Positions 42,760 through 45,440 of a stretch of DNA of 64,000 nucleotides are shown here, one piece after another (positions within the stretch are counted from its first letter, which is position 1; the number at the start of each line of letters is the position of its first letter). The notes under the pieces are model-generated. The model saw only the letters and a list, made by a program, of their open reading frames with translations, was not told the DNA's origin and ran no database searches. The translations under genes were made by a program, and so were the position numbers. This stretch comes from Thermoanaerobacterium sp. RBIITD (GTDB taxonomy: Bacteria > Bacillota > Thermoanaerobacteria > Thermoanaerobacterales > Thermoanaerobacteraceae), in the NCBI RefSeq assembly GCF_900205865.1, contig NZ_LT906662.1, positions 558,001 through 622,000 of the forward strand, given 5' to 3'.

Positions 42760-43320
42760 TCAAGAATGTACTCTTTTAACACCTTTAACCATAGCATTTG
42801 TGACCATCAAAAAAATACCCGATGCGATAAAAAGATCGCCAATGCTAAAAGTCTTTGGAAGCGGATATGGCTTAGGCAGCACAAGTACATCTGCCAAAAA
42901 TTTAAGTCTTGTTGCTGATGTCATGGCTTGATGCGTAGGAACGATGTTTTTTTGCAATGTCGGTATTAAATTATTCAGCCCCGCCTCTTTCAGTGCATTT
43001 AAAGAAACAGGCATCCTTCCTCCATTTGCAAATATAACTATAAAATTTAAAATGATCCCAACTGTAATTATCATCATATACTTATTATGTCTATTATACC
43101 ATAATCCGAAAAACAACATAAGATAGTCAAGGAAATGTATATATGCCCTATATGTCATAATAATTGGAAATCTATCGGTTAAATTTAATACTCCAAATTC
43201 CAATGCAAATCCAAGTATAAAAAAAATAGGCTTCTTTATGTCTATTTCTGCGATACCGCTGATTTTACCTCTTCTTATTAATCCATATATCAATGATGCA
43301 CCAAGAGAATCAAAAATCAT
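42760..43320 (-). CDS. DUF5317 family membrane protein
   Basis: About 186 residues with four or five hydrophobic segments, of which FILGFALEFGVLNLTDRFPI, YIHFLDYLMLFFGLWYNRH and MMIITVGIILNFIVIFANGG are the clearest. The ANGGRMPVS loop and the late GDLFIASGIFLMVTNAM are typical of DUF5317 proteins, whose function is unknown. The ATG at 43320 follows AAGGAGG by nine bases and overlaps the end of the HD-GYP gene by 11 bases, indicating co-expression. Confidence 0.75.
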   Translation of the reverse strand: MIFDSLGASLIYGLIRRGKISGIAEIDIKKPIFFILGFALEFGVLNLTDRFPIIMTYRAYIHFLDYLMLFFGLWYNRHNKYMMIITVGIILNFIVIFANGGRMPVSLNALKEAGLNNLIPTLQKNIVPTHQAMTSATRLKFLADVLVLPKPYPLPKTFSIGDLFIASGIFLMVTNAMVKGVKRVHS

Positions 43321-44578
43321 GCTTAAAATCCTCCTTATTCTTTTCATATGCTTTCTTAAAAAGATTTATTATCCTTGGGCTAAACTGTGTGCCTTCACTA
43401 TCAACTATTATCTTATATGCTTCATCTCTTGTATATGCGTCACGATATGGCCTGTCCGAAACAAGTGCATCAAAAACATCTGCGATAGAAAGTATCTCTG
43501 CTTCAAGCGGTATCTGCTTTCCGCTTATACCGTCGGGATAACCCTTTCCATTGTACCACTCATGATGATACCTTACCCAATATCGGACATTTTTCAGAAA
43601 TGGTACATCCTTTAATATTTCATATCCACTCATAGGATGCATCTTAATATAATCATACTCTTCTTTTGAAAGTTTGCCAGGTTTATTTAAAATATTTTCT
43701 ATTATGCCTATTTTACCTACATCATGTAAAAGAGCTGCAATGCGTACCATCTCTGTATGTGCCTCACTGAATCCTGCTTCTCTGCACAAATAAACAGATA
43801 ATTTTTCAACACTTTTTGAGTGTCCTAAAGTGTATTTATCTTTTGCTTCCAATGCTTTTGTGAGGGCATTTATTGTATCATAATATGAACGCTTTAAATC
43901 CATGTAAAGTTTAAACATATACCTTACCATTAAAAGCGGTACAAAAAATATAACGAGTGTAATATATCCATATGCTATAAAAGCCGATGCCATTAATATA
44001 CCTATAAAAGCTAGAAATAAGAAATTGATCAAGGTCCAACTGAAATCAGATGTCCATATTGACAAAATTGGTTTTTTAAGCAAAAAAGAGAGAAGAACAG
44101 CTACAATACCAGAATTTGAAAAATAATATACCGCGGAAGCTATAATCGCTGGAATTAAATATTTTGGATATACGTACCTTCCAGGGACACCACCCAAATA
44201 TTTATAAACGAATCCGCCCAAAAACACACTTATAGTTATTTGTGAAATATTAAATAAAGTTTTATAGTATGGAGTATTTAACGCACATTTCATTTTCCTA
44301 TTAACATGTCTAATCAGAAGCAAGTTACCAATTGAAGCTATTATTGCGCCTTCTAGAGGACCATATAATAATATAGCCATTAAATCTACTGCATAGGCAA
44401 CAGAAACCGAAACATTATTATTTATGTATATTGGTAAAGATTCACAAATAGCTGAAAAGATAATTAAAATCAGAATATCACTGATATAATGTATATTAAT
44501 ATTAACTATTGAATATATTATAACCGAAATACCAATAATTATAATAAATGTTATATAAAAAATCAACTTTTTACTCAA
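43310..44578 (-). CDS. membrane HD-GYP domain protein, probable c-di-GMP phosphodiesterase
   Basis: About 422 residues. The first 220 form several membrane helices without a recognised sensor motif. The remainder is an HD-GYP domain: AKDKYTLGHSKSVEKLSVYL, LLHDVGKIGI near residue 295, MHPMSGYEIL, YHHEWYNGKGYPDGISGKQI and ILSIADVFDALVSDRPYR, with the GYP triad intact. Such proteins hydrolyse cyclic di-GMP or related dinucleotides. The preferred start is TTG at 44578, eight bases after GGAGG; the open frame reaches 44644 but has no ribosome site there. A 27-residue peptide gene lies 34 bases upstream in the same transcript. Confidence 0.88.
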   Translation of the reverse strand: MSKKLIFYITFIIIIGISVIIYSIVNINIHYISDILILIIFSAICESLPIYINNNVSVSVAYAVDLMAILLYGPLEGAIIASIGNLLLIRHVNRKMKCALNTPYYKTLFNISQITISVFLGGFVYKYLGGVPGRYVYPKYLIPAIIASAVYYFSNSGIVAVLLSFLLKKPILSIWTSDFSWTLINFLFLAFIGILMASAFIAYGYITLVIFFVPLLMVRYMFKLYMDLKRSYYDTINALTKALEAKDKYTLGHSKSVEKLSVYLCREAGFSEAHTEMVRIAALLHDVGKIGIIENILNKPGKLSKEEYDYIKMHPMSGYEILKDVPFLKNVRYWVRYHHEWYNGKGYPDGISGKQIPLEAEILSIADVFDALVSDRPYRDAYTRDEAYKIIVDSEGTQFSPRIINLFKKAYEKNKEDFKHDF

Positions 44579-44601
44579 AATATCATCCTCCATAAAAATA
44601 T

Positions 44602-44775
44602 ACCCAAACCGTTTATCCCCAAGTGAAATTTGCACCACCAGCAAGTGCTAATGCTAATAAAGCAAACAATACTTTTATTAATGTTGCCTTTTTCATCCTG
44701 AAACCCTCCTTTAACCAAGTTGCTCCTCTGCTCTTTAGCTTCAGGCGAAACGCTACGCTAAATAAAGGTTTGGGT
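44602..44775 (-). other. structured leader with inverted repeat enclosing a peptide gene
   Basis: ACCCAAACC (44602-44610) and GGTTTGGGT (44767-44775) are perfect inverted repeats that could close a 174-base RNA domain around the peptide gene. Inside, minus-strand TTTAGC/GCTAAA (44735-44763) encloses GCG/CGC, CCTGAA can pair with TTCAGG just before the peptide ATG, and CCTTTA (44765-44770 region) can pair with the UAAAGG of the Shine-Dalgarno. I recognise no known riboswitch class. Confidence 0.45.
44613..44696 (-). CDS. 27-residue hydrophobic peptide upstream of the HD-GYP gene
   Basis: A short gene begins ATG at 44696 with a strong Shine-Dalgarno AAAGGAGGG ending seven bases upstream, and stops with TAA at 44613. 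The product begins MKKATLIKVLFALLALALAG and ends GANFTWG: a lysine-rich start, a hydrophobic helix long enough to span the membrane and a short polar tail with Trp. It resembles a signal peptide or a small secreted or membrane peptide. It has no cysteine and no double-glycine bacteriocin leader. Its position 34 bases before a membrane HD-GYP protein suggests a functional pair, for example peptide ligand and receptor or a regulatory leader. Function unknown. Confidence 0.6.
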   Translation of the reverse strand: MKKATLIKVLFALLALALAGGANFTWG

Positions 44776-44789
44776 TAAAAATAAACTAT

Positions 44790-45440
44790 TTAATTGTTAA
44801 GGATTGTTATAAGACGCCTATTTAAAGCGTCCAATGTCGCCTTTACAGCTGCTTCACCCTCATCTTTTTTAATAAGGCAGGATCCAACAAGCATTTCTTC
44901 ATACTGATGTGTCGCATGTGTAAGGGCAACAACTACAACATGATTTTTTGCAATTGGAAATATATCAACATCTTCTAAAATGAGATTGTGTTCATCAGAA
45001 ATTATCTTGGATAAGCAGTCAATTGTTGCATTTACGATTATCCTGTTTTTATTCCTTGAAGTATTGAGACCACGAGCTACCCCTTCATATATTTCAGTAC
45101 CACGTGTCAATGTAACAGTCGCTTCCATATTTATTCCCGTGTTCACACATGTAAGGCTGACAAAAGCAAGTCTATTATCGTTATATGCTCTACCACCTGT
45201 CTCAATCTGTGCAACACTAATTATCTTATAATTAATATCTATGTTAAACTCAGCCATTAATACAGACTGTACGTCTCTTGCTATCTGCTTAGCACTTCTA
45301 GAGTTATCTGAGAGGACATGAATTTCTACTATCTCATTTCCATTTGCAACAACTTTGCTTGAAATCACACTTTGCACTTTATTTATCAATTCTTCCATGG
45401 AACTGATGACATCATTAGTTAATTCAGCCACAATATTCAC
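44790..45440 (-). CDS. conserved hypothetical protein
   Basis: 216 residues, soluble, no signal peptide. The first half carries a regular alpha/beta stretch with EIVEIHVLSDNSRSAKQIAR near residue 37 and FNIDINYKIISVAQIE near 68. The second half is rich in strands (RLAFVSLTCVNTGINMEATV near 95, then NRIIVNATIDCLSKII and VVVVALTHATHQYEEMLVGS) and ends in an acidic helix. The second half looks like a repeated strand-helix unit. I recognise the pattern as conserved in unrelated bacteria but know no function. The gene has a Shine-Dalgarno-poor start and ends 93 bases before the peptide gene, with no terminator seen between, so it may share their transcript. Confidence 0.65.
   Translation of the reverse strand: MNIVAELTNDVISSMEELINKVQSVISSKVVANGNEIVEIHVLSDNSRSAKQIARDVQSVLMAEFNIDINYKIISVAQIETGGRAYNDNRLAFVSLTCVNTGINMEATVTLTRGTEIYEGVARGLNTSRNKNRIIVNATIDCLSKIISDEHNLILEDVDIFPIAKNHVVVVALTHATHQYEEMLVGSCLIKKDEGEAAVKATLDALNRRLITILNN

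Follow-up and report, generated by a model that had tools for sequence, protein, structure and literature searches.

To our knowledge, the ligand sensed by most c-di-GMP enzymes is not known. The locus described here raises the question of whether such a ligand might be encoded directly beside its enzyme. In the window that was analyzed, a stretch of 64,000 nucleotides from Thermoanaerobacterium sp. RBIITD, a short open reading frame (ORF) precedes a gene for a membrane HD-GYP protein, and the initial annotation had offered three functions for it: a peptide-sensing c-di-GMP pathway, a leader peptide controlling the HD-GYP gene, or a small membrane regulator.

A 27-residue peptide gene before a membrane HD-GYP gene

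The ribosome site, the 34-nt gap, the TTG start and the nine-base repeat that had been described for this locus were all found, and they lie on the minus strand, which the initial annotation had omitted (Table 1). The distance from the peptide stop codon to the TTG at 44578 is exactly 34 nt, and the HD-GYP gene carries its own GGAGG before this start. The window peptide consists of a basic N-terminus, a hydrophobic core, the segment LAGGA and a W-containing tail. Scans of the peptide against Pfam, NCBIfam and PHROGs returned nothing above threshold. Judged by its sequence and that of its relatives, the ORF is a genuine gene of a previously undescribed, widespread peptide family.

Table 1. Features of the peptide-receptor locus (positions in the window)
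Feature	Position	Strand	Evidence
Upstream gene, weak similarity to the LeuA allosteric domain	44790..45440	-	Pfam, neighbour count
Long-range stem enclosing the peptide gene	44602..44775	-	Sequence; same layout in many relatives
Leader RNA element	44697..44775	-	Covariance model in relatives; P2 degenerate in the window
Leader motif AGCGTAGCG (family consensus AGCGNAGC)	44751..44759	-	Motif count in leaders
Shine-Dalgarno sequence AAAGGAGGG of the peptide gene	44704..44712	-	Sequence
Peptide gene, 27 aa, MKKATLIKVLFALLALALAGGANFTWG	44613..44696	-	ATG...TAA ORF, family profile, blind search, selection
Variable, putative specificity tail, codons 23-27 (NFTWG)	44616..44630	-	Identity split within genus, tracking of MASE9
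Membrane HD-GYP gene (TTG start), MASE9 and HD_5	43310..44578	-	Pfam, conserved motifs, AlphaFold, Foldseek
MASE9 sensor, predicted ECF S-component-like fold	43895..44578 (boundary approximate)	-	Foldseek, within-genus divergence
DUF5317 membrane protein gene, overlapping the 3' end of the receptor gene	42760..43347	-	Pfam, neighbour count

Spread of the family and linkage to the putative receptor gene

Relatives were gathered from whole genomes and GTDB contigs, and small ORFs with a ribosome site 5' of 163 distinct MASE9-HD-GYP genes were scored by a peptide profile. Those that come first in their operon and have at least 300 nt of upstream sequence formed the first-in-operon set (n = 143). 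The profile found the peptide 5' of 124 of these 143 genes versus none of the 14 second tandem copies, so that conservation of the ORF in relatives, on which the initial annotation had staked its proposal, is borne out. Several of the 19 first-in-operon genes without a scored peptide have a similar-looking short ORF of low score. Scores of the relatives' peptides ranged from 58 down to about 8 bits, and the best antisense control ORF reached 3.4-4.8. The loci span many families of the phylum and occur also in contigs named Atribacteria, Caldatribacterium, Actinobacteria and Coriobacteriia.

Strict linkage of the peptide to the receptor gene also emerged from a blind search of 300 genomes with the peptide profile, which gave 71 matches at E<=1e-5. 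Sixty-six of them are found 56-288 nt 5' of a MASE9-HD-GYP gene with which they share the strand; of the other five, one (G215) has a displaced receptor and four sit at the end of a contig or close to it. At the G215 locus (L243, G215:C1:1046300-1051000), the peptide lies 2.2 kb from the receptor match, and the matching of the MASE9 and HD-GYP parts at separate places suggests that the receptor gene is interrupted. Across all loci the peptide-to-receptor spacing varies, from about 40 to 290 nt.

The family consensus opens with basic residues, continues with a hydrophobic core, present in 117 of 119 peptides, and LAGGA, and usually closes with 4-6 residues that end near a W. This W near the end is missing in 30 of the 119 peptides, and six of the 119 contain a Cys. 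Some members, e.g. MKKVMRIVARLLSGGSNYIW, lack a typical signal-peptide core. Members of a divergent class (L213, L215, L216 and L218) end in ALA|DSTRWG or VLA|ESTHWN, an arrangement that looks like a cleavage site for signal peptidase I and, after it, a W-containing 6-mer. Residues 1-22 are under purifying selection, i.e. selection at the protein level, with pN/pS values of 0.13 and 0.19 in two genera.

A conserved leader RNA

The structured leader that had been proposed before the HD-GYP gene proved to be real and conserved. On the minus strand it folds at -60.1 kcal/mol versus -48.5 kcal/mol for dinucleotide shuffles (z -3.06; 1 of 200 as good). Of the 124 leaders, 96 contain the motif AGCGNAGC, against an expectation of 1.4, and in most relatives a hairpin with a UAGCGGA loop, P2, lies 3' of it. 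A covariance model (R1) built from 16 leaders recovers 76 of 100 loci. The P2 hairpin shows compensatory changes at 7 of 7 pairs, with 92% of cells paired, in an R1 alignment that was fitted to the structure, so that its pairing counts lean towards that structure. Slid controls gave 35-58% pairing versus 80% overall, and an independent fold also yields the P2 hairpin. Pairing in the outer helix is weak (58% of cells). The window has a degenerate P2, which R1 fails to detect, and G000 yields no R1 match. Searched over 300 genomes, R1 gave 38 matches at E<=0.006, and 37 of these fall at such leaders, either 5' of a receptor gene or at a contig end; the sole off-leader match, in G053, apparently sits within an ORF. 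An Rfam scan of 10 loci at E<=2 returned no relevant match and one weak irrelevant match. By sequence comparison, the leader is a conserved RNA absent from Rfam, a novelty independent of the peptide, and it may regulate expression of the peptide-receptor unit. Of the 121 peptide loci that extend far enough, 113 have the LeuA-like gene as upstream neighbour, and the leader motif stands at 93 of these 113 versus none of the eight without the gene, in raw counts that ignore phylogeny.

The stem that encloses the peptide gene has the arms ACCCAAACC (5', 44767-44775) and GGTTTGGGT (3', 44602-44610), next to a T-run at 44594-44598. The stem recurs with changed sequence (mean z -1.6 versus other-locus partners; 36% below -2), often followed by T-runs, and in this layout, kept in many relatives, the suggested covariation of the repeat was found. 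The stem and T-runs around the ORF, the hairpin and the structure adjacent to the Shine-Dalgarno sequence, and the closeness of the downstream gene are all consistent with attenuation, in which translation of the ORF or ribosome stalling would set read-through into the HD-GYP gene and the peptide product would be functionless. However, this explanation conflicts with the selection acting on the amino-acid sequence, with the variable distance between the two genes, with the absence of the W near the end from many peptides, and with a peptide tail whose divergence follows that of a domain in a different protein (see below). It conflicts as well with L019 (1150-1520) and L020 (2735-3120), where the peptide-receptor unit is found in another context without the AGCGNAGC leader and an intrinsic-terminator-like hairpin parts the peptide and receptor genes. 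Attenuation with a functionless product is in our view highly improbable, and the leader-peptide option of the initial annotation is thus disfavoured, such control being unlikely to be the main role of the ORF. Pure Trp-codon attenuation is ruled out because of the 30 peptides without W near the end. A sigma-70-like promoter for the HD-GYP gene, spotted by eye in L019, was dropped after a scan gave no confirmation.

The MASE9-HD-GYP protein, a putative receptor

The product of the downstream gene is a putative peptide receptor and a putative c-di-GMP phosphodiesterase. In its HD-GYP domain (Pfam HD_5, E 1.7e-38), HDVGK and HHEWYNGKGYPDG are conserved, and the HD and HHExxxGxGYP motifs are present. 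Among the MASE domains on c-di-GMP enzymes, Pfam MASE9 covers the sensor domain, with E 6e-5 and, in the protein scan, 23.5 bits against a cut-off of 24.3 (25.1 bits in the genome scan); the receptors of close relatives score clearly above the cut-off. The AlphaFold model of the receptor (pLDDT 93, pTM 0.80) was matched by Foldseek to the HD-GYP structures 4mcw and 9rbz and, in its membrane part, to a consistent run of ECF S-components (RibU, FolT, ThiT, BioY), with a probability mostly of 0.90-1.00, a TM score of about 0.5-0.6 on the target and an identity of 12-19%, the E-values of 0.1-2 being weak taken singly. As modelled, MASE9 has the ECF S-component fold; unlike the ECF S-components, it is fused to HD-GYP, and no transport function is implied. 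Known S-components bind ligands from the extracellular side, in agreement with a peptide tail that would be displayed there. In a model of the peptide, linker and receptor as a read-through fusion, the peptide was placed at only moderate confidence (pLDDT 81/61/64 by block).

Relatives also encode MASE9-GAF-GGDEF proteins and one MASE9-GGDEF protein (L271-L276, L278), and no peptide gene of the family was found next to these genes. In the four sampled genomes that both searches covered (G047, G093, G194 and G264), the peptide profile matched the HD-GYP locus only, save one weak match within a long frame in G047. By their domains, these proteins are possibly opposing cyclases with the same type of sensor; that they read the same peptide as the MASE9-HD-GYP proteins is conjecture.

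The S-component fold, together with MASE9-GAF-GGDEF proteins that exist without an adjoining peptide, would also suit a MASE9 that senses a vitamin-like small molecule, the peptide being a processing or folding aid whose tail is matched to local sensor variants. We give this explanation only a slim chance, as it leaves unexplained why tail and sensor diverge in one joint block while the rest is conserved.

Peptide tail and sensor diverge together

Co-diversification of tail and sensor was examined in 18 species of two genera, g1 (8 species) and g3 (10 species). Identity in g1 is 97% for peptide residues 1-22, 64% for the five-residue tail, 66% for MASE9 and 96% for HD-GYP. Tail distance in this genus follows MASE9 distance (Mantel r 0.88, P 0.0005), with the same value of 0.88 when four flanking genes are partialled out, and its correlation with HD-GYP (r 0.10, not significant), DUF5317 (0.10) and the LeuA-like gene (0.08) is close to nil. 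In g3 the tail-MASE9 correlation is 0.69 (partial 0.57, P<0.0005, the 2000 permutations used for all P values giving no resolution below 0.0005); the correlations of the tail with HD-GYP and the flanks (r 0.43-0.51) are expected because of species relatedness, and the HD-GYP partial is -0.07. With relatedness taken out, tail distance follows neither HD-GYP nor the flanking genes.

The same picture is seen in nucleotide identity. Between L003 and L006, it is 99-100% as far as the peptide tail, falls to 54-73% across MASE9 and is about 90-99% in HD-GYP. Such a sharp divergence block, from the peptide tail through MASE9, occurs in species pairs with near-identical flanks and is absent in same-tail pairs. 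In different-tail pairs of the L003/L006-L008 group, MASE9 has pS 0.64 and pN 0.25, versus background values of pS 0.30 and pN 0.02 in same-tail pairs of g1. The last five residues and the MASE9 sensor are one divergent cassette between conserved flanks (about 90-100% nucleotide identity). The co-diversification typical of the peptide pheromone-receptor class was thereby found, and the block resembles, by analogy, the signature of 'pherotype' cassettes. Within a genus, MASE9 divergence is spread over the domain without focus on one face (segment variability), so no binding site could be mapped on it, and mutual information between tail and MASE9 columns mostly mirrors site variability.

Co-diversification of tail and sensor would fit any kind of contact between the two. 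The main rival of a peptide signal is a co-evolving membrane subunit: an uncleaved peptide would pack on MASE9 as a single-pass helix, with its tail in the outer pocket, and act as a cis regulator or stabilising subunit, tail and sensor co-evolving through their contact. The strictly one-to-one linkage, the conserved small-residue segment LAGGA and the hydrophobic core agree with it, and to that extent the small membrane regulator of the initial annotation may still apply; but an obligate subunit does not readily account for a cassette-like divergence among species with near-identical flanking genes, and neither second tandem receptors nor MASE9-GGDEF proteins come with a peptide. We consider such a subunit rather unlikely.

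Proposed signalling mechanism

The peptide-sensing c-di-GMP pathway is the best supported of the three options, by strict linkage and by tail-sensor co-diversification, and the C-terminal tail of the peptide is probably a signal that is recognised by MASE9 and controls c-di-GMP breakdown. The ORF would encode the precursor of a short peptide signal, in which residues 1-22 would serve as a signal-peptide-like or membrane-targeting segment and the stretch of 4-6 residues that follows LAGGA (NFTWG in the window, or GGANFTWG) would be exposed outside the cell. The product of the adjacent gene, a membrane receptor resembling S-components, would recognise the tail through its MASE9 domain, and binding would change how active its HD-GYP phosphodiesterase is and hence the level of c-di-GMP. 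Joint exchange of tail and sensor as a specificity cassette would give rise to species 'pherotypes'. Export, cleavage and binding of the peptide, the direction of its effect, its activity and cell-to-cell signalling are steps that we infer.

The DUF5317 gene comes next after the receptor gene in 107 of the 149 loci that have room for it, and its product has near-invariant N, MP, D and SxGD residues. It is a possible candidate for a processing or transport partner; no dedicated exporter or protease for the peptide was identified, and DUF5317 is only usually present.

Likeness to known systems

In Agr and ComX/ComP, the tail of the peptide and the sensor domain vary jointly as a specificity cassette, and the output domain is conserved. 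The window system resembles Agr (AgrD/AgrC) and ComX/ComP in that a short peptide adjoins a membrane receptor and in the same tail-sensor cassette with a conserved output domain. It differs in having no AgrB- or ComQ-type gene in the flanks read, no Cys in the window peptide and no histidine kinase, in a putative HD-GYP phosphodiesterase as output, and in the predicted S-component-like fold of its sensor. The marks of AgrD, a Cys or Ser ring residue and an adjacent AgrB-like gene, are found neither in the window tail, which holds no Cys or Ser, nor in the flanks read, and the earlier exclusion of an Agr-type precursor for want of cysteine stands. Streptococcal CSP/ComD pherotypes are allelic peptide variants matched to receptor variants; peptide variants would likewise pair with receptor variants here, whereas only 4-6 residues follow GGA and there is no kinase. 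MgrB-type regulators are likewise very short hydrophobic peptides that act on a partner membrane sensor, and we know of none that is a polymorphic specificity cassette. TM0504 is a Thermotoga peptide.

Novelty and significance

In the literature searched, which left most subscription journals outside, we found no paper on MASE9 or DUF5317, no ligand or peptide partner of MASE9 and nothing pertinent to peptide signals that act on HD-GYP; the peptide family, the leader RNA and the peptide-receptor pairing were undescribed there as well as in family libraries and Rfam. The locus would represent a polymorphic peptide-receptor cassette in which the peptide family, the class of receptor and the leader RNA are all new. 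There is about an even chance that Bacillota and several other phyla share a new, widespread peptide quorum sensing, in which an S-component-like receptor would detect a tail of 4-8 residues and thereby set c-di-GMP directly, opposing MASE9-GGDEF cyclases in some genomes might detect the same peptide, and a new structured leader RNA would enclose the peptide gene. If so, one large HD-GYP family, and perhaps the MASE9-GGDEF cyclases too, would gain a defined peptide ligand, and cell-cell signalling would act on c-di-GMP directly, with neither a kinase nor a transcription factor in between. The species-matched peptide-receptor pairs would make this question directly testable, and confirmation would reveal a new peptide language by which bacteria set c-di-GMP directly.
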